From contig JAEEGY010000087.1 of NCBI GenBank assembly GCA_016280565.1, positions 1-10,521 of the forward strand: a DNA stretch of 10,521 nucleotides, read 5' to 3'. Below are positions 4,949-10,510 of the stretch, piece by piece. A model generated the notes under the pieces. That model did no database searches. It worked only from the letters and a program-made list of their open reading frames with translations, and was not told where the DNA came from. Position 1 is the stretch's first letter. The number at the start of each line of letters is the position of its first letter. Source of the stretch: Fretibacterium sp. Its GTDB lineage: Bacteria; Synergistota; Synergistia; Synergistales; Aminobacteriaceae. The position numbers and the translations under genes are program-made.

Positions 4949-4991
4949 GATTACGGGGTGACAGTTTGCCCTCGATTTTTGCCCGCCTGTC

Positions 4992-5000
4992 TGCCATAAT
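4992..5000 (+). promoter_or_regulatory. Extended -10 promoter for the STAS gene
   Basis: TGCCATAAT at 4992-5000 is an extended -10 element with one mismatch (CATAAT). The expected start near 5007 leaves about 30 bases before the GTG start, enough to include the AAAGGAGG ribosome site. No clear -35 is seen. Confidence 0.5.
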
Positions 5001-5037
5001 ATCCTTATCCCTTACAGATGAAAGGAGGCGGTGCCCA

Positions 5038-5463
5038 GTGTCCGGGGGCAGGAAACTGACTCTCAGATTTAACGCGGGGGAGGTACCCCCCGCACCCCCT
5101 GAGTCCGGTATGAAGGCGGGCAGAGAGCTCACGCTGGTGTTAAGCGAACGAAGGTTGGATGCGGAGTCGGCCCCCCGTTTCCATGAGGTGCTGAGGCGGA
5201 ATATCGCAGGGGCCACGAGCCTCGTCGTCGATATGGCCGCTGTGGTTTACATCTCCTCCGCGGGGCTTCGCGCCCTTTTGTCGGCGCAGCACGCGATGGA
5301 GGAGGGCCAGGGGCCCCTTCCCGGCGGGGGGAGCCGCGTGACGCTCCGCAACGTGAGCGAGGAGGTCATGAGCACCCTCGAGGTGACAGGCTTCTCTGAG
5401 ATATTCAACGTGGAACCGGCCGCAGGGCATACCCACGGGGTCCAGACAGGCGGGGCACGATAA
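5038..5463 (+). CDS. STAS-domain protein, anti-sigma-factor-antagonist type
   Basis: 141-residue single-domain protein of the SpoIIAA/RsbV-like STAS group. Such proteins bind an anti-sigma factor kinase and release the sigma factor or other partner, with phosphorylation on a conserved Ser as the switch. Seen: LTLVLSERRLDAESAPRF (31-48), SLVVDMAAVVYISSAGLRAL (61-80), the hallmark strand-loop-helix with candidate phospho-site Ser73/Ser74, and VTLRNVSEEVMSTLEVTGFS (101-120). Residues 1-28 are a Pro/Gly-rich lead with no match to the fold. GTG 5038 is chosen because a perfect AAAGGAGG (5021-5028) sits nine bases upstream. A longer frame from TTG 4966 would swallow the promoter, and ATG 5110 has no ribosome site. 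No kinase or sigma gene is adjacent, so the partner is unknown. Confidence 0.85.
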   Translation: MSGGRKLTLRFNAGEVPPAPPESGMKAGRELTLVLSERRLDAESAPRFHEVLRRNIAGATSLVVDMAAVVYISSAGLRALLSAQHAMEEGQGPLPGGGSRVTLRNVSEEVMSTLEVTGFSEIFNVEPAAGHTHGVQTGGAR

Positions 5464-5506
5464 AAACCGGAGCGCAGCCGGGGGATACTCCCTCGGACTG
5501 CGCCCC
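5462..5506 (-). terminator. Intrinsic terminator of the 34-codon gene
   Basis: On the minus strand CTGCGC/GCGCAG (5498-5503 with 5472-5477), CGG/CCG and CCC/GGG pair around a 5-base loop, followed by TTTTT (5466-5462). The T-run overlaps the stop codon of the convergent STAS gene. There is no T-run in the plus direction. Confidence 0.75.
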
Positions 5507-5519
5507 TCCTGCAAGTGCC

Positions 5520-5624
5520 TTACCGCTTACGGGCGGCGGCTGTGGGTTCGCGGAAAACAACGATAACCCAGCGGCCAAACTTCAGATAGAGCTTGAAGTC
5601 AAGGCGTTTCAGCCAGTTCAGCAT
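5520..5624 (-). CDS. 34-residue small basic protein, candidate type I toxin or antisense-regulated small protein
   Basis: Short frame with a full expression unit: an extended -10 promoter (5757-5765), AAAGGAG (5640-5634) nine bases before ATG 5624, and an intrinsic terminator 14 bases after the TAA. The peptide begins MLNWLKRLDFKLYLK, an amphipathic Leu/Lys/Trp stretch. It continues through a hydrophobic WVIVVF (19-24) and ends in Ala and basic residues (AAARKR, 29-34), so it is strongly cationic and could associate with membrane. I recognise no known family. Its mRNA has features typical of type I toxin messages: a long folded leader, a sequestered ribosome site, and small RNAs encoded next door that are complementary to its start region. 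It might instead be a harmless small regulatory protein. That it is a gene is well supported; that it is a toxin is inference. Confidence 0.72.
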   Translation of the reverse strand: MLNWLKRLDFKLYLKFGRWVIVVFREPTAAARKR

Positions 5625-5750
5625 AAGAACTATCTCCTTTCTGTGAAAGGATGCCCACCCCGCGAAAGGTGGACCAATGCAAGGGTTTTTAAGCCCCGCA
5701 AAGACTTAGCCCCCAGAGCTCGCGGTATTCCTTATGCTCTGCTGTGCAGT
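5625..5750 (-). promoter_or_regulatory. Folded 5' leader of the 34-codon mRNA
   Basis: About 126 bases from the predicted start (near 5750) to the ATG. Three hairpins are visible in the minus-strand RNA. Hairpin A is UAAGUC/GGCUUA (5708-5703 with 5695-5690), loop UUUGCGG, with a U-G wobble that would be a C-A mismatch on the other strand. Hairpin B is CCACC/GGUGG (5672-5668 with 5659-5655), loop UUUCGCGG. Hairpin C is UCCUUUC/GAAAGGA (5651-5645 with 5641-5635), loop ACA; its 3' arm contains most of the Shine-Dalgarno. Loops A and B are complementary to hairpin loops of the neighbouring small RNAs. Hairpin C should lower translation of the full-length message. Confidence 0.65.
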
Positions 5751-5756
5751 AAAGAT

Positions 5757-5765
5757 ATTTTAGCA
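5757..5765 (-). promoter_or_regulatory. Extended -10 promoter of the 34-codon gene
   Basis: TGCTAAAAT on the minus strand, one base off the consensus TGnTATAAT. It sits four bases after the T-run that ends small RNA 1, the same junction seen four more times in the array. Predicted start is near 5750. Confidence 0.65.
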
Positions 5766-5768
5766 TAG

Positions 5769-5849
5769 AAAAAAGAGGTCCCTTTTGAGTTTCAGTGTTC
5801 GCGGGCACTGAAAGAGGGACCTCCTATGCTGAAATGGCTGAAACACCTT
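5769..5849 (-). ncRNA. Small RNA 1, predicted antisense to the 34-codon mRNA start region
   Basis: Predicted about 81 nt, from near 5849 to the T-run at 5774-5769. Its 5' part matches the antisense of the 34-codon mRNA over 28 bases (5849-5822 against 5601-5628) with 25 identities. Two differences become G-U wobbles in RNA, leaving one true mismatch. The pairing covers the start codon and codons 2-8; the unbroken blocks are GUUUCAGCCA and UUCAGCAUA. The 3' part is a hairpin: outer stem GAGGUCCC/GGGACCUC (5775-5782 with 5816-5823), inner stem CAGUG/CACUG extended to 8 bp, loop CCCGCGAA, which is also complementary to leader loop B. Because mRNA and small RNA come from the same strand at separate loci, this is trans pairing, not cis overlap. 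Confidence 0.7.
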
Positions 5850-5855
5850 ACCTCT

Positions 5856-5864
5856 ATTATAACA
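5856..5864 (-). promoter_or_regulatory. Extended -10 promoter of small RNA 1
   Basis: TGTTATAAT on the minus strand, a full match to TGnTATAAT, one base after the TTTTTG that ends small RNA 2. Predicted start near 5849. Confidence 0.7.
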
Positions 5865-5865
5865 C

Positions 5866-5953
5866 AAAAACCCCTTCCTTTAGCCCTGACAGTTGCAGTC
5901 TGCCAGAAAAGGAAGGGGAATTGCAAAGGCCGCGTAAGCCTCGCCTCGTATGT
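5866..5953 (-). ncRNA. Small RNA 2 (target unknown)
   Basis: Predicted about 88 nt. It ends in an 11-bp stem AAAGGAAGGGG/CCCCTTCCTTT (plus-strand 5908-5918 with 5871-5881) and TTTTT (5870-5866). Its loop, around GACTGCAACTGTC, differs from the shared CCCGC loop of the other three. The 5' segment contains ACATACGAGG but no convincing anti-Shine-Dalgarno. It shares only seven bases (GCTTACG) with the antisense of the 34-codon gene's 3' end, which I do not count as evidence of pairing. It may be a diverged or decayed member. Confidence 0.55.
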
Positions 5954-5959
5954 AAGGAT

Positions 5960-5968
5960 ATTATAGCA
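5960..5968 (-). promoter_or_regulatory. Extended -10 promoter of small RNA 2
   Basis: TGCTATAAT on the minus strand, a full match to the extended -10 consensus, next to TTTTTTG of the preceding terminator. Predicted start near 5953. Confidence 0.7.
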
Positions 5969-5969
5969 C

Positions 5970-6040
5970 AAAAAATCTCCCCCACTTTACTCTCTGGTGT
6001 TTGCGGGCACCAAAGAAGGGGGAGTGAGTCAATATGTCGT
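5970..6040 (-). ncRNA. Small RNA 3, predicted antisense RNA with a target elsewhere
   Basis: Predicted about 71 nt. The terminator stem is CTCCCCC/GGGGGAG (6024-6018 with 5983-5977) with inner UGGUG/CACCA, loop CCCGCAAA, then TTTTTT (5975-5970). The loop is exactly complementary to UUUGCGGG in the 34-codon mRNA leader (5702-5695). The 5' segment contains CGACATATTGACTCACTCCCCC, the shape of an antisense to a purine-rich ribosome site followed by ATGTCG. No such target gene is in the window. Confidence 0.65.
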
Positions 6041-6046
6041 GCCCTT

Positions 6047-6055
6047 ATTATAGCA
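6047..6055 (-). promoter_or_regulatory. Extended -10 promoter of small RNA 3
   Basis: TGCTATAAT on the minus strand, a full consensus match, following seven T's and one A. Predicted start near 6040. Confidence 0.7.
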
Positions 6056-6056
6056 T

Positions 6057-6130
6057 AAAAAAACTCCCCCTTAAATTCCCGGCGTTTGCGGACACCGAGA
6101 AAAGGAGGAGGTACCCAAAATGCTTCACTT
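6057..6130 (-). ncRNA. Small RNA 4, predicted antisense RNA with a target elsewhere
   Basis: Predicted about 74 nt. The outer stem CUCCUCCUU/AAGGGGGAG (6110-6102 with 6072-6064) and inner CGGUG/CGCCG each contain a U-G wobble that would be a C-A mismatch on the other strand. This supports the minus strand as the RNA. The loop is UCCGCAAA, followed by seven T's (6063-6057). The 5' segment carries AAGTGAAGCATTTTGGG and then CCTCCTCC: the antisense of a strong ribosome site, an 8-9-base spacer and ATGCTTCACTT. Part of that anti-ribosome-site sequence is shared with the terminator stem. No matching gene lies in this window. Confidence 0.65.
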
Positions 6131-6136
6131 GAAGAT

Positions 6137-6145
6137 ATTATATCA
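6137..6145 (-). promoter_or_regulatory. Extended -10 promoter of small RNA 4
   Basis: TGATATAAT on the minus strand, a full match to TGnTATAAT, one base after TTTTTG. Predicted start near 6130. It is the first promoter of the array. Confidence 0.65.
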
Positions 6146-6146
6146 C

Positions 6147-6193
6147 AAAAACTCAGGATAAGACGCGGGAGCTCCTGTGTGGAGCCCCCGCGT
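6147..6193 (-). terminator. Terminator-like hairpin upstream of the small RNA array
   Basis: Minus-strand stem ACGCGGG-G-GCUCC / GGAGC-U-CCCGCGU (6193-6181 with 6175-6163), loop ACACA, with one G-U wobble that would be A-C on the other strand. The T-run (6151-6147) is separated from the stem by 11 bases, so termination is less certain than for the other hairpins. It would end transcription arriving from the large gene or from the folded element between them. Confidence 0.5.
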
Positions 6194-6213
6194 TCGATAG
6201 CTTTTACCGTCAG

Positions 6214-6403
6214 GGCGCTAGGTCGGCGCACCGCGTCCCGACAGCCCGGCGCTAGGTCGGGGGCTCACGGTTAGCCAGGCGACCGGGCTCACGCGATCCC
6301 GCAGGGAGCGCGGCGTCCGGTCGATCGGCTATGTCGGAGGGAAGCGTGGGACGCTTCCCGGAGGCCCGATAACACGTTCCGAGATTGCGTCGCCGTGAGC
6401 CCC
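6214..6403. ncRNA. Strongly folded GC-rich element, possible structured RNA of unknown class
   Basis: About 190 bases with nested pairing and no credible gene. A closing 11-bp stem GGGGCTCACGG (6260-6270) with CCGTGAGCCCC (6393-6403) encloses two arms. Arm 1 is TAGCC/GGCTA (6272-6276, 6327-6331), CGACCGG/CCGGTCG (6280-6286, 6317-6323), ACGC/GCGT, and CCC-GCA-GGG at the tip. Arm 2 is TCGG/CCGA and GGGAAGCG/CGCTTCCC (6339-6346, 6352-6359). Before the closing stem lie two copies of GGCGCTAGGTCGG (6214-6226, 6248-6260) and a hairpin GTCGG/CCGAC. A multi-branched fold of this kind occurs in large bacterial RNAs, including the omega/HEARO RNAs of IscB/IsrB elements. I cannot assign it, and no transposon protein is next to it. 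One G-T pair weakly favours the plus strand. Confidence 0.5.
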
Positions 6404-6407
6404 TCTC

Positions 6408-6434
6408 CTACGCGCCTCAATTTACTACGCGCCT
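6408..6434. repeat. 10-base direct repeat at the end of the large gene
   Basis: CTACGCGCCT occurs at 6408-6417 and again at 6425-6434. The second copy contains most of the stop codon of the large minus-strand gene. This may be a small local duplication or the edge of an insertion that brought in the folded element at 6214-6403; only one side shows it. Confidence 0.5.
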
Positions 6435-9400
6435 ACTTCTTCCTTGTCGCTACCAGCCCGCACAGCACCAACAGTCCCGCAAGGCCCAGCCCCGCGTCGC
6501 AGCCGCCGCCGTCCTTGTCGCTGGTGGGGCTGTCGCCGCCGGAGGGCGCGCCGGTCAGGGAGAGGGTCACGTCCATGCTCACGCCCTCGAGGCCCGTGTC
6601 GTAAACGTAGGTCACCGTGGCGGGGACGGAGGCAAACGTGGCCACGCCCGTCTCCGTGTCCCACGTTGTCTCAATGGGCGAGCCGTCCGGCCCGTAGCCC
6701 TGCACCTCCGTCACGAGGCTTGGGGTGTAACCGACGTAGGGCGTCAGATCCAGCGTCTTGCCCAATGGCACGCCGCTGATGCTCTGCCCGCCGCATTTCA
6801 GCTGCGAAAGGCGGTTCAGCCCCCCGAGGTCCAGACGGCCCAGCCTCCGGCCGGCGCAGTCCAGCGACAGCAGCCACTTTGCGCCGCTCAGATAAAGTTC
6901 GCTCAGCACGCCGCAGCCCTCGATGTTCAGGGAGTACAGCTCCGCGCAGCCGTTGGCCGTCAGCTTCTCCAGCGCCGGGCAGTTCGAGGCGTTCAATTCC
7001 TTCAGCGCCGCGCAGTTCGACACGTCCAGCTCCTTGAGGTTCGCGATGCCGCTCACGTCCAAACTCACGAGCCCGGCGTTGCCGCTCAGGACCAGCACGT
7101 CCAGCGACAGGCAGCCGCTCAGGTTCAATTCCGGCACCTGGCTATCCGTCAGCTTGAAGTTCTCGAACACCACGCCGGAGGGCAGTTTCAGAGAGGACAG
7201 CGCCGTCGCCTCCGCGAGAGACAGGGACTTCAGCCCCGCGCAGCCGCTCAAGTTCAGGGCCGTCATCTTCGCCCCGTTCAGCGAAACGTCCGTCAGGGCG
7301 TTGCACCCGCTCAGGACCAGCGTTGCCAGGGAGGGACACCCGTTCGCGCTCAGGCTTTCCAGCGCCGTGCAGTTCGCCGCTTTCAGCGAGGTCAGCTTCT
7401 CGCAGCCGGTGACGTCCAGATTCGCCAGAGATGCGAAACCGCTCACGTCCAGAGCCGTCACCGCCGTGCCGTACAGCGACAGGCTTTCCAGCCCGGAGCA
7501 TTCTCCCATGCCCGTCAGGTCCGTCAGCTTCGAGCAGTCGTTAATCATGACGGCCGACAGCGACGAACACCCGGTCACGTCCAGCGAGGTCAAATCCTTG
7601 CAGGCGTACAGCGACAGGGACGTTAAGGCCGTTTTGCCGCGCAGGTCAAGTTCTGTCACATCTGACTCGTCGACGGACAGCTCCGCCAGGTTGGGCAGCT
7701 TATCAAGGCCGTCCAGCGTGCCAGCCGCGCCCCTGCGAAATTCCAGACGGACGACCTTGTCCAGCCGGCCGGCCAGGGCCGCCAACATCGTGTCCACGTC
7801 GGGGTAAACGTATTCCGCGCCCTCCACATTGGGGACCGCCGTGCCGATCACCGCCGAGATGTTGCCGGTGTCGGGGTCCACTTCCCCGTTGACGTAGTAC
7901 GTCACGCCGTCGCCCAGCCCCACGTGCCCGTCCGTGTCCTCGTCATCGGCGGCAAGGTCGATCAGGGGATCGTCATTGATCGGGAGAGCGAACTTATCCG
8001 AGATGTCAATTGCTCTCCCAGAATCTCGGTAGTAACGAATAATCCTCCCATGCTTGGTGAGGCCAGTGCTGTTGTGGGCAGTGACATATATCGTGTAGTC
8101 GCGATCCCCCCGATTCACTGGTACACTAAATTCGAATCTTATGGTGCTCTCCCCGGCTCCTGACCCCAGATCAGGAATGGATTTGCAAGGGGGCACATCG
8201 GTCTTCCACTTGTATTCGACGTGCGTCCCCATACGCTCCCTGAAGAGCACAGTGAAGGGCTGGTATTTTGATTCGTATATTTTGACCAGCCAGGAGCGAA
8301 AGTTTGGCTTCACGTCCTTGACCTTGAGGGTGAACGCGCGCTCGTCCGCCCCGGCGGCGTTGGAAGCCCTCACGGTGAAGGCGTAGGTCCCCACGGCTGA
8401 AATGTGTTTATATGTTCCCGGGGTTGAACTCTTATCTAGATTCGGCTTGCCGGAAATCTCGCCCGTGTCCTTGTTGAGTGTCAAACCCTCCGGCAGACTG
8501 CCTTTCACGATCTGATACTTGATAGGCTTCATCCCCGTGGTCACGATCTTATCGCTGTAGCTTTTCGTGACCGTCGCGTTACCGAGGAACGTGGTCGTGA
8601 TCTTCGCCGGTTCGGGCGTAACAGCCTTAACGGAGAGCGTTTTTGTCACCACCGAGCTGGTCTTGACGCCACTGTGCAGAGCGGAAGTGGTGACCTGGTT
8701 CGTTATCCCGCTGGATCCGCCGCCGTCGGTGACGGTATAGTTGTAGTCCCCGTCCTCAATGTCAGTCGAATTTGTGGGGTTTGCAGTGACCTTGCCGTTG
8801 CTGTCGATGGTCAGCCACGAGGGCCAGTTGCCACTCTGCGCGAAGGACAGCGCGGCGTTCCTGATGGGCTTCATCGTGCCGTCGCCCAGCGTTGCCACGA
8901 GCGCGGCGTAGTCGCTCAGGTCCGCGGACGACTTTTGCCCGGAGGCGGCCTCCATTATCGCCGAGTTGGCCATGATCCTGAGGGCCGTGCTGTCGTCCGA
9001 GGTGACAGGGGCGGGAGTGTCGCCGGTGCCCTTGTTATCGTCCGGGGTGACGGGGGTGTCGCCGCCGCCCTTGTTATCACTGTCCGGGGTGACGGGGGTG
9101 TCACCGCCACCGCTCTTGTTATCGTCAGGGGAGACGGGGGTGTTGTTGTCGCTGCTCTTTTCCGTGACCGTGACGGAGACATTGGCCGTGGCGGCTTGGC
9201 TTGTCACGCTGCCGTCCGTGGTGGACGCCTGGACCTCAACGGGGACGAGAACCGCGCTGTCGGTGGCCGCCGCTTCGGTCCCGACGGTGAGCGTGCCGTC
9301 CGTGAACGAGAAGCCCGCGGGCAGTGTGCCGGTGGCCTTCCACGCGAGGTTGTAGCCGCTGGTGAGGGTCTCTGTTTTGCCGTTGCTGTACGTGGCCGTG

Positions 9401-10467
9401 ACCGTCGCGCCCAGTGTCAGCGTGCCCGTCTGGCCCTGCGTGACCGTCAGCGGCGTGTTGCCCGTGATGTCGACGGAGACGCCGGTGAGGGTAACCGGGG
9501 CAGCCGCGATCTCCACCGCGCCGATATCGTGGGCGTTATCGATAGCACCGAGCTGGTCCTCAGTGAGGGTAATTGTGCCGGTCTTCTCAGCGGCGAAGAG
9601 CTGGGCGTGGTTTCGGAAGACGGTGTGGGTAACTCCGCCGACAGTTGTTTTCTCATCGGAGGTGGACGTGGGGACGGAGGTGAGCTTCAGCTCGTTGTTT
9701 GTCAGGCAAGTGGACGTATCGACGCCAGCAGTGCTGCCGTAAATGATGGAGTTTCCAATTTTTCGGGAGGTTTTGTCGTCGTCGTTGCCGTCGTCGCAAT
9801 AGATTTCCGCGCCCATGGTAGCCTTGTTGTTCACGAACGTGCAGTAATTGACCGTGACGGACCCGCCGTAGCAGACATACAGGCCGCCGCCATTACTGTT
9901 GTTGCTTTGCGTTTTGTTCTCCGTGAACGTGCAGTTTTCAATCGTATCGACGTCGGCATCGGTGTTCTTTTCGATGTGTATCCCACCTCCGTTGCCGCCG
10001 GTATTGTTGTAGAAAGTGCAGCGTTTCACGGTCAGCGAGCCGATTGTCTCAGAGTAGATGCCGCCGCCCATGTCCGCGGTGTTGCCCTCAAAGCGGCAGT
10101 TTGTGACGGTCAGGGTACCGCTCGTTTTGTAAATCCCGCCGCCCTTGTCGGCCCTGCCGTTGGCGATGACGAAGCCGTCGATGGTGGGCTCGCCATCGGT
10201 GATTTCAAAGACGCGGCACTGGTTTTGTCCGTTCAGCCTCGCGCCGTTGCCTTTGAGGGTGACGGTCTTGCCAATCTTGATGGTTGCGTCCAAATCATAC
10301 GAGGCCGGCTCAAAGGTAACTTCGCCCGTTGCGTTGGATATGACCTCGTTTATTTTTTCAGCCTTCATATCCTTCGTGATCGTCTCCGCCCAGCCCGGCA
10401 CGGCCAGCGTCCCAATGGGAACCAGCGCCGCGCACAAGGCCAATAACAATAACGCAAACTTTTTCAT
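6433..10467 (-). CDS. Secreted beta-helix / Ig-like / leucine-rich-repeat protein with Synerg-CTERM anchor
   Basis: 1344-residue surface protein. ATG 10467 is chosen because it starts a clear signal peptide (MKKFALLLLALCAAL, cleavage probably after about residue 28) and has GGAGG at 10482-10478. Domains in order: right-handed beta-helix coils with repeated GGGIY and NCxF motifs (about 70-225); a segment ending DIGAVEI (238-320), as in choice-of-anchor-Q proteins; an Ig-like region (325-435); a Pro/Asp/Gly linker (444-486); a region of unclear fold (487-615); a putative Ig domain with SLPEGLTLNKDTGEISGKP (657-675); an unassigned segment (720-835); Cys-containing leucine-rich repeats of about 20 residues (905-1228); and GGGCDAG plus a hydrophobic helix and TRKK (1320-1344), the Synerg-CTERM signal. 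That signal implies export and surface sorting. The likely role is adhesion or substrate binding; no catalytic motif was recognised. Confidence 0.9.
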   Translation of the reverse strand: MKKFALLLLALCAALVPIGTLAVPGWAETITKDMKAEKINEVISNATGEVTFEPASYDLDATIKIGKTVTLKGNGARLNGQNQCRVFEITDGEPTIDGFVIANGRADKGGGIYKTSGTLTVTNCRFEGNTADMGGGIYSETIGSLTVKRCTFYNNTGGNGGGIHIEKNTDADVDTIENCTFTENKTQSNNSNGGGLYVCYGGSVTVNYCTFVNNKATMGAEIYCDDGNDDDKTSRKIGNSIIYGSTAGVDTSTCLTNNELKLTSVPTSTSDEKTTVGGVTHTVFRNHAQLFAAEKTGTITLTEDQLGAIDNAHDIGAVEIAAAPVTLTGVSVDITGNTPLTVTQGQTGTLTLGATVTATYSNGKTETLTSGYNLAWKATGTLPAGFSFTDGTLTVGTEAAATDSAVLVPVEVQASTTDGSVTSQAATANVSVTVTEKSSDNNTPVSPDDNKSGGGDTPVTPDSDNKGGGDTPVTPDDNKGTGDTPAPVTSDDSTALRIMANSAIMEAASGQKSSADLSDYAALVATLGDGTMKPIRNAALSFAQSGNWPSWLTIDSNGKVTANPTNSTDIEDGDYNYTVTDGGGSSGITNQVTTSALHSGVKTSSVVTKTLSVKAVTPEPAKITTTFLGNATVTKSYSDKIVTTGMKPIKYQIVKGSLPEGLTLNKDTGEISGKPNLDKSSTPGTYKHISAVGTYAFTVRASNAAGADERAFTLKVKDVKPNFRSWLVKIYESKYQPFTVLFRERMGTHVEYKWKTDVPPCKSIPDLGSGAGESTIRFEFSVPVNRGDRDYTIYVTAHNSTGLTKHGRIIRYYRDSGRAIDISDKFALPINDDPLIDLAADDEDTDGHVGLGDGVTYYVNGEVDPDTGNISAVIGTAVPNVEGAEYVYPDVDTMLAALAGRLDKVVRLEFRRGAAGTLDGLDKLPNLAELSVDESDVTELDLRGKTALTSLSLYACKDLTSLDVTGCSSLSAVMINDCSKLTDLTGMGECSGLESLSLYGTAVTALDVSGFASLANLDVTGCEKLTSLKAANCTALESLSANGCPSLATLVLSGCNALTDVSLNGAKMTALNLSGCAGLKSLSLAEATALSSLKLPSGVVFENFKLTDSQVPELNLSGCLSLDVLVLSGNAGLVSLDVSGIANLKELDVSNCAALKELNASNCPALEKLTANGCAELYSLNIEGCGVLSELYLSGAKWLLSLDCAGRRLGRLDLGGLNRLSQLKCGGQSISGVPLGKTLDLTPYVGYTPSLVTEVQGYGPDGSPIETTWDTETGVATFASVPATVTYVYDTGLEGVSMDVTLSLTGAPSGGDSPTSDKDGGGCDAGLGLAGLLVLCGLVATRKK
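9010..9138 (-). repeat. In-frame repeats coding for a Pro/Asp/Gly linker
   Basis: Three imperfect copies of a 40-50 base unit code for variants of GGGDTPVTPDSDNK (residues 444-486 of the large surface protein). They form a flexible, acidic linker between the Ig-like region and the rest of the protein. All bases stay in frame, so copy number could change without breaking the gene. Confidence 0.75.
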
Positions 10468-10475
10468 TACTCTAA

Positions 10476-10510
10476 CGCCTCCATAGGCCAAAATCAAAAA
10501 CATCTATATA
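10476..10510 (-). promoter_or_regulatory. Ribosome site and possible -10 of the large surface protein gene
   Basis: GGAGGCG (10482-10476) lies ten bases before ATG 10467 and decides the start against a frame extending to 10503. TATATA (10510-10505) in an AT-rich stretch may be the -10; its -35 would be outside the window, so the promoter is only a suggestion. Confidence 0.45.

Follow-up and report, generated by a model that had tools for sequence, protein, structure and literature searches.

What does a row of four small promoter-terminator units do upstream of a gene of only 34 codons? The question is posed by contig JAEEGY010000087.1 of Fretibacterium sp. (Synergistota; assembly GCA_016280565.1), of which we analysed a stretch of 10,521 nucleotides (nt), hereafter called the window. 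The original prediction, made from the sequence letters, had seen in this locus a candidate type I toxin-antitoxin-like module with an array of four antisense RNAs directed at a single peptide gene. We consider it likely that the locus belongs to a new family of loci resembling type I toxin-antitoxin modules, in which the first RNA unit is the partner of the adjacent gene, and that the three further units are of the same make, with toxins that are lost or lie elsewhere.

Results

Pairing of the antisense unit with its gene

The 34-codon peptide gene (MLNWLKRLDFKLYLKFGRWVIVVFREPTAAARKR; 5520–5624, on the minus strand, like the leader and RNA units described below) has the promoter, folded leader and terminator of its own that had been ascribed to it. 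Its -10 hexamer TAAAAT (5757–5762; extended form TGCTAAAAT), less consensus-like than those of the RNA units, is followed by a structured leader (5625–5751; fold z-score −2.37), and a GC-rich hairpin with T5 forms an intrinsic terminator at 5503–5462. Just upstream lies RNA unit 1 (5769–5850; -10 hexamer TGTTATAAT at 5856–5861), which would give rise to an RNA of ~82 nt from its inferred start, with a 5′ tail complementary to the Shine-Dalgarno sequence (SD) and the AUG. The predicted complementarity to the gene start held up well: the two regions form a 39-nt inverted repeat (79%), and unit and gene start pair with a duplex energy of −51.1 kcal/mol.

Loci of the same kind in this and other genomes, described below, made it possible to compare partners. 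A tandem unit is found just upstream in 10 of the 14 intact genes. For nine unit-gene pairs, all-against-all duplex energies averaged −42.4 kcal/mol with the own partner and −22.8 kcal/mol with the others; 1 of 200,000 shuffles was as good, and the own partner scored best in all nine rows and in eight of nine columns. With a tenth pair added and 14 mRNAs offered, all ten tandem units were best on their own gene.

A second contact involves the loop of the unit 1 terminator hairpin (CCCGCGAA, 5805–5798, as taken from the fold) and the loop of leader hairpin H3 (UUUCGCGG, 5667–5660). Across 11 units, with loops taken from folds and alignment columns and that of the G016b leader set by hand, the mean complementary run was 6.2 with the own partner versus 3.3 with others, a value reached in none of 200,000 shuffles, and in 10 of 11 rows no other partner surpassed the own one. 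The hairpin loops, said in the original prediction to be shared between units, thus vary, and they covary with the leader hairpin loop. In these comparisons two contacts covary, that of the tail with SD and start codon and that of the terminator loop with the H3 loop, and antisense control of the small peptide by unit 1 is, as far as sequences can tell, strongly supported.

The covariation bears on the possibility that the units are inert repeats, arisen as terminator-promoter duplications and devoid of function. Their junctions are indeed uniform, the -10 box of the next unit sitting 4 nt past the U-tract in five of seven array steps, and the window's own genome contains two extra units that look degenerate, C262_o, which has no U-tract, and C93_o, where none is seen by eye. 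Inert repeats would not covary, however, while unit 1 and nine relatives do so in tails and loops with their paired genes, and we therefore give this explanation hardly any weight.

The leader of the peptide mRNA

The leader appears to lock its own gene. In the SD hairpin (5634–5652), the anti-SD AUCCUUU (5652–5646) pairs with the Shine-Dalgarno AAAGGAG (5640–5634), and a long-range helix, whose 5′ strand lies at 5728–5735, covers the nucleotides leading up to and into the start codon (5631–5624); one helix would thus mask the SD and the other the stretch up to the start codon. Between them lie hairpin H2 (5678–5700, from leader fold and alignment) and hairpin H3 (5653–5675), whose loop has alternative partners, the RNA unit 1 loop or a pseudoknot element, CCGCGA (5720–5725), within the leader itself.

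The structure derives from a MAFFT alignment of six leaders, in which 87.8% of cells pair, against at most 61.0% when partners are slid. Fourteen leaders, 13 from intact genes and one from a locus without a toxin (C262:435), were then aligned by fitting to a covariance model: 91.6% of cells pair, compared to at most 55.6% with slid partners, and 22 of 26 pairs change on both sides. Such both-side changes number 77 cells, versus 28.7 in shuffles, none of 500 shuffles being as high. The pseudoknot segment, usually ACCGNNA, matches the H3 loop over a mean run of 5.7 versus 3.5 in 15 leaders with hand-set segments, and of 5.4 versus 3.4 in 14 leaders whose segments were read off the alignment columns (0 of 200,000 shuffles in either case). 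For the long-range helix, with hand-set segments in 14 leaders, the corresponding values are −8.1 versus −4.1, again unmatched in 200,000 shuffles.

The H3 loop is the partner in the pseudoknot too, so that the loop of the antisense RNA imitates the pseudoknot segment of the leader; the tail, in turn, pairs at the place covered by the long-range helix, and the entire antisense RNA would therefore mimic the 5′ part of the leader. That the antisense RNA is a mimic of the leader's own lock is what we infer as the central feature of the mechanism. By its anatomy, the locus would work like a type I module with a two-contact antisense RNA. The peptide mRNA would be locked twice, by the anti-SD hairpin over the Shine-Dalgarno sequence and by the long-range helix reaching up to the start codon, with the segment beside the 5′ strand of that helix engaging the H3 loop as a pseudoknot. 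Unit 1 would be transcribed from its own promoter just upstream, which is probably the stronger one: TATAAT serves as -10 box in 16 of 19 RNA units and in 3 of 11 leaders of tandem loci (P 0.0045, boxes picked by eye). Its terminator loop would contact the H3 loop, probably first, and its 5′ tail would next pair with SD and AUG. Since this pairing covers both elements, blockage of translation by an RNA, as expected of type I systems, is implied.

The peptide

The 14 peptides of the family are 29–42 amino acids long, within the size expected of a type I toxin (a small peptide of fewer than 60), and 13 of them carry a net charge of +6 to +13, the window peptide having +7. Ratios of non-synonymous to synonymous substitution (dN/dS) were ~0.27 and ~0.30 for the comparisons C135–C18a and C135–C18b, which have C135 in common, ~0.21 for G068a–G070a over the first 35 codons, and ~0.47 for G016–G016b with one codon shifted by hand. 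The peptide thus looks coding, with apparent selection in four of five comparisons. A single-sequence structure prediction of the window peptide gave one helix spanning residues 3–24, at a mean predicted local distance difference test score of 72. The window peptide is probably a small toxic membrane peptide. The type I likeness originally proposed suits the small peptide and the covarying antisense unit best; the notion of four RNAs serving one gene is not supported.

It is conceivable that the antisense pairs are real and that the peptide is a small membrane or signalling peptide rather than a toxin. None of the 14 peptides matched a Pfam family at an expectation value (E) of up to 1, none of the three scanned against NCBIfam matched there, and PADLOC returned only a chance-level match (E 0.025) for one of three scanned peptides, all of which would suit such a role. 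Yet 13 of the 14 peptides are cationic with a hydrophobic stretch, and the window peptide is modelled as a single helix. Moreover, a leader that masks the SD together with an antitoxin acting there is usual in type I systems (PMC7472228, PMC11228461), in which antitoxin-only remnants are known as well (PMC11264685). We therefore think a harmless peptide unlikely.

A gene for a STAS-domain protein (4966–5463) is the next one downstream in the window. It runs convergent to the peptide gene, for which reason we dismissed an attenuator or leader peptide.

Distribution of the family

The genome that carries the window (1.48 Mb in 279 contigs, 81% complete) yielded further copies, with DNA matches on C18 (two places), C262 and C93, and with a tandem pair of peptide paralogs on C18 and a further one on C262. 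A covariance model built from six leaders (R2) was run over the 81 genomes of the family, and eight of these gave matches (E ≤ 0.1), that in G034 being false. New leaders were found in G087 (E 4.8e-19), C93 (2.6e-10), C262:435 (4.4e-10), G068 (1.5e-8 and 1.0e-3), G070 (1.0e-7 and 5.9e-6) and G016 (0.02); as these eight lie beyond the six from which the model was built, we count them in favour of a type I toxin-antitoxin-like family. An improved leader model matched 14 of 180 order-level genomes (E ≤ 0.05) and 12 of 185 from the phylum (E ≤ 0.01), the sets of genomes searched overlapping. A leader-motif pattern found 16 stretches in genome contigs, two of which the leader model confirmed, in Fretibacterium fastidiosum (NC_021038.1, G008) and in a Synergistaceae metagenome-assembled genome (contig WRKN01000006.1, G012); three stretches in viral contigs were not confirmed by it, and a BLASTn search with gene and leader against plasmids and phages gave no match.

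After reading of the matches, 14 intact peptide genes remained, spread over 7 of the 81 genomes of the family: the window's own genome has five, G016, G068 and G070 have two each, and G008, G012 and G087 have one each. A search of relatives, as had been advised, thus found both peptide and unit. Reading led us to reject the matches in G034 and G089, those in G007 and G097 from the order scan, and the only ones outside the family (G036, G125 and G174). A laxer scan gave nine weak matches, seven of which, including three in same-genus genomes, were likewise rejected, the other two being those of G008 (E 1.4 and 1.46). Since the scans of more than 40 genomes used stricter filters, weak copies may have been missed.

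The array, taken in the original prediction to be without known counterpart, is not singular to this genome. The complete genome record of F. fastidiosum, also in Synergistota, holds a locus with three units, and another genome has one with two. The arrangement is above chance, as it recurs in diverged loci of different sequence in which the units fit their own genes.

In G068 and G070, the four copies have the leader, and no tandem unit was seen. In three of them, H2 doubles as an intrinsic terminator of the opposite strand (CCCCGGTTTTGAAGCCGGGG, followed by a T-rich stretch; L046 1561–1580, L047 1184–1203 and 1555–1574), and TGnTATAAT boxes were found by eye, and not in scans, on the opposite strand downstream of two of these genes. 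This suggests, as an unproven variant, a convergent cis antisense RNA in place of the tandem unit.

Immediately behind the C262 peptide gene is a likely type II pair (L007 2476–2987, plus strand), made up of a YafQ-family toxin (E 8e-36) and a 74-amino-acid protein with no Pfam match.

Orphan units and remnants

Upstream of unit 1, on the same strand, follow units 2 (5866–5953; -10 hexamer TGCTATAAT at 5960–5965), 3 (5970–6040; TGCTATAAT at 6047–6052) and 4 (6057–6130; TGATATAAT at 6137–6142), their starts being inferred. As predicted, each of the four units consists of a promoter and a terminator: a TGnTATAAT extended -10, a tail that differs from unit to unit and a bulged terminator hairpin followed by T5–T7, with fold z-scores of −3.35, −3.77, −3.51 and −3.46 for units 1–4. 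Repeat finding placed the promoter junctions in one family with spacings of 104, 87 and 90. Rfam 15 had no match in the window at gathering score, and relaxed scans of the array region and three relatives' loci gave only matches below it. Two kinds of array were considered and dropped. Type III modules produce one RNA of tandem repeats that binds a protein toxin, and here every unit has its own promoter and terminator; in a CRISPR-like array, the units would be constant where these differ, and the cognate units match gene starts.

That all four RNAs act on the window gene is not borne out, only unit 1 fitting it. Units 2–4, at −24.4, −15.9 and −20.3 kcal/mol, do not surpass the units of other loci in pairing with this gene. 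Among 19 units compared, 10 are cognate, one stands before a leader without toxin (C262:435) and the remaining eight are orphans: the window has three of them, F. fastidiosum two, and C262, C93 and G087 one each. The best partners of the orphans among the 14 known mRNAs (−22.8 to −33.0 kcal/mol) are weaker than nine of the ten cognate pairs (−28.4 to −51.1 kcal/mol). A mirror of SD and ATG is nevertheless kept in five of the eight orphans, against a shuffle mean of 1.4 (P 0.005, with an SD pattern of our choice). The reverse complements of the tails of units 3 (GGGGGAGTGAGTCAATATGTCG) and 4 (GGAGGAGGTACCCAAAATGCTTCAC) would each correspond to the SD and ATG of a target that was not found; unit 2, with the loop ACUGCAA, has a tail without such a mirror.

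Targets were sought, with up to three mismatches, for four of the eight orphans, unit 2 and three others being left out. For unit 3, the own genome contained two other sites, coding by eye and without leader; for unit 4 there was none in the own genome or in eight others; one F. fastidiosum orphan had no other site in its single-contig genome; and for the G087 orphan, three sites with three mismatches in the G087 genome had no leader. In viral contigs, an exact 18-mer for the unit 3 target gave four stretches, none with a leader, and the corresponding 18-mers for unit 4 and for one unit of F. fastidiosum had no match. Both the own genome and that of G087 are draft assemblies, which may lack some of the targets.

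These results also speak to the idea that units 2–4 are working regulators of other cellular mRNAs instead of leftover antitoxins. In its favour, all three have intact promoters, tails, hairpins and U-tracts, and unit 2 lacks the SD and ATG mirror. On the other hand, the tails of units 3 and 4 have that mirror, like most cognate tails, and no leader-bearing target site turned up for these two in the own genome, nor for the F. fastidiosum and G087 orphans. Such a regulatory role appears improbable to us; units 2–4 rather look like antitoxins of other or lost genes.

Stages of such a loss seem to be preserved. At C262:435 of the window's own genome (G000), an RNA unit and a leader are present without a toxin. 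In the same-genus genome G001 (C50), a further unit stands before a truncated leader that lacks its peptide gene, which, read from the sequence, is a direct picture of toxin loss, and G004 has a decayed leader relic (L058 271–390) with no peptide gene behind it. The G001 unit was one of four matches read (L099, L100, L103 and L107) from a unit search with 21 matches; the other three were promoter-like or loop-like scraps and were rejected. The same search recovered the known loci C93 and C262 and, by position, the unit of G012 itself.

The best reading of the arrays is as antitoxins that survived. Where a locus is intact or still bears a leader, the -10 of that leader lies 4–6 nt past the U-tract in 6 of 12 cases and 8–22 nt past it in the other six; recombination between similar terminator/-10 junctions probably removed toxins from tandem modules and so left rows of antitoxins. 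Selection may even keep the arrays as an antitoxin memory, with orphan RNAs guarding against modules once carried or possibly incoming, an idea we put forward tentatively and regard as rather doubtful. An array would then grow through capture of a module followed by toxin loss, and new addictive toxins of the family could not establish themselves.

Beyond the array, a GC-rich stretch (6160–6420) with direct repeats GGCGCTAGGTCGG (6214 and 6248) and an 18-nt inverted repeat (6253/6393) extends towards the end of a gene for a 1356-amino-acid surface-type protein (6433–10503, minus strand) with polymorphic-membrane-protein-like, Ig-like and leucine-rich repeats. A relative of this protein (34% identity over 225 aligned columns) is encoded beside the decayed unit of G001 (L099 1–1074, minus strand).

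Discussion

Several observations weigh against our interpretation. Some concern the pairings: the C18a mRNA is predicted to bind the window's unit 1 (−40.4 kcal/mol) in preference to its own unit (−28.4 kcal/mol), so that cross-talk is possible; the C262 loop has a longer match with the H3 of another leader than with that of its own (6 versus 5), and G016b has only four loop pairs. Within the leaders, the pseudoknot of G068b measures 7 with the hand-set segment and only 3 with the aligned one, and the long-range helix is weak in G087 (−3.5), G068b and G070b (−3.9 each), where several non-own pairs are stronger than the own. Others concern the peptide, with a net charge of −1 and a longer C-terminus in G012 and a dN/dS near 1 in the close pair C18a–C18b (dN 0.13, dS 0.11, few changes). 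The family is patchy, being present in 7 of 81 genomes, and three same-genus genomes gave no intact copy, with laxer filters too. None of the four unit promoters or hairpins was recognised in a generic scan for sigma-70 promoters and terminators, probably because the promoters lack a -35 match and the hairpins contain bulges; the totals of that scan were one promoter-like site (0.9 in shuffles) and three terminator-like sites (2.4 in shuffles). Finally, the shuffle counts ignore kinship between loci, many segments for the duplex, partner, long-range and pseudoknot tests were set by hand, and the alignment of 14 leaders was fitted to the covariance model. We nevertheless hold to the reading of the locus as a type I toxin-antitoxin-like module followed upstream by orphaned antitoxin units.

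If confirmed, this would add Synergistota to the phyla with type I systems, by way of covariation that searches for toxin sequences would miss. According to a 2025 paper, type I systems were known only from Proteobacteria, Firmicutes and Tenericutes, to which it adds a cyanobacterium (PMC12390103). Our literature search, which left most subscription papers outside, found no description of a type I toxin-antitoxin system in Synergistota; at the level of titles and the beginnings of abstracts, and with the same restriction, it found no such antitoxin arrays either, the nearest case being orz-only Escherichia coli (PMC11264685). The locus would also offer a clean model of an antitoxin RNA that imitates the cis lock of its own target and, because both contacts covary, of specificity split between paralogs, while the arrays would allow tests of what becomes of antitoxins once their toxins are lost.

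How, then, does the locus relate to known systems? In par of pAD1 (fst, RNA I/RNA II; Fst/Ldr), a 33-amino-acid peptide is made from an mRNA whose SD is masked by an intramolecular stem-loop, and a kissing contact of a terminator loop is combined with a second pairing that sequesters the initiation site (PMC7472228). The window locus resembles par in its small peptide, masked SD and two contacts. The par RNAs, however, are convergent and share a bidirectional terminator, whereas the antisense RNA of the window is an upstream tandem gene on the same strand, and its loop would contact a hairpin of the leader instead of the toxin's terminator; nor is the Pfam result for the 14 peptides what membership in Fst/Ldr would give. 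The SD within a leader stem-loop and a covarying pseudoknot, here deduced from sequence, are shared with timP/TimR, where the antitoxin acts on the pseudoknot-bearing form of the mRNA (PMC11228461). TimR, in contrast, binds another stem-loop (SL2), while in the window the loop of unit 1 is complementary to precisely the H3 loop that serves the pseudoknot, and the tail of unit 1 would cover SD and AUG.

With zor/orz, tisB/istR-1, shoB/ohsC and dinQ/agrB, finally, the locus has in common that the antitoxin RNA is a separate gene with limited pairing. In zor/orz, this pairing spans 18–19 nt and duplicated loci have specific partners (PMC3919570), and ~30% of the E. coli genomes studied carry orz only (PMC11264685). 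The antitoxins of this group are divergent, though, and pair with the 5′ untranslated region away from the initiation site (PMC4147584), in contrast to the same-strand tandem order, the start-site and loop pairing and the rows of up to four antitoxin-type genes seen here. On the best reading of the sequences, the mechanism would thus be close to those of par of pAD1 and timPR, while the locus itself, judged by its sequence and layout, belongs to none of the described families with which we compared it.

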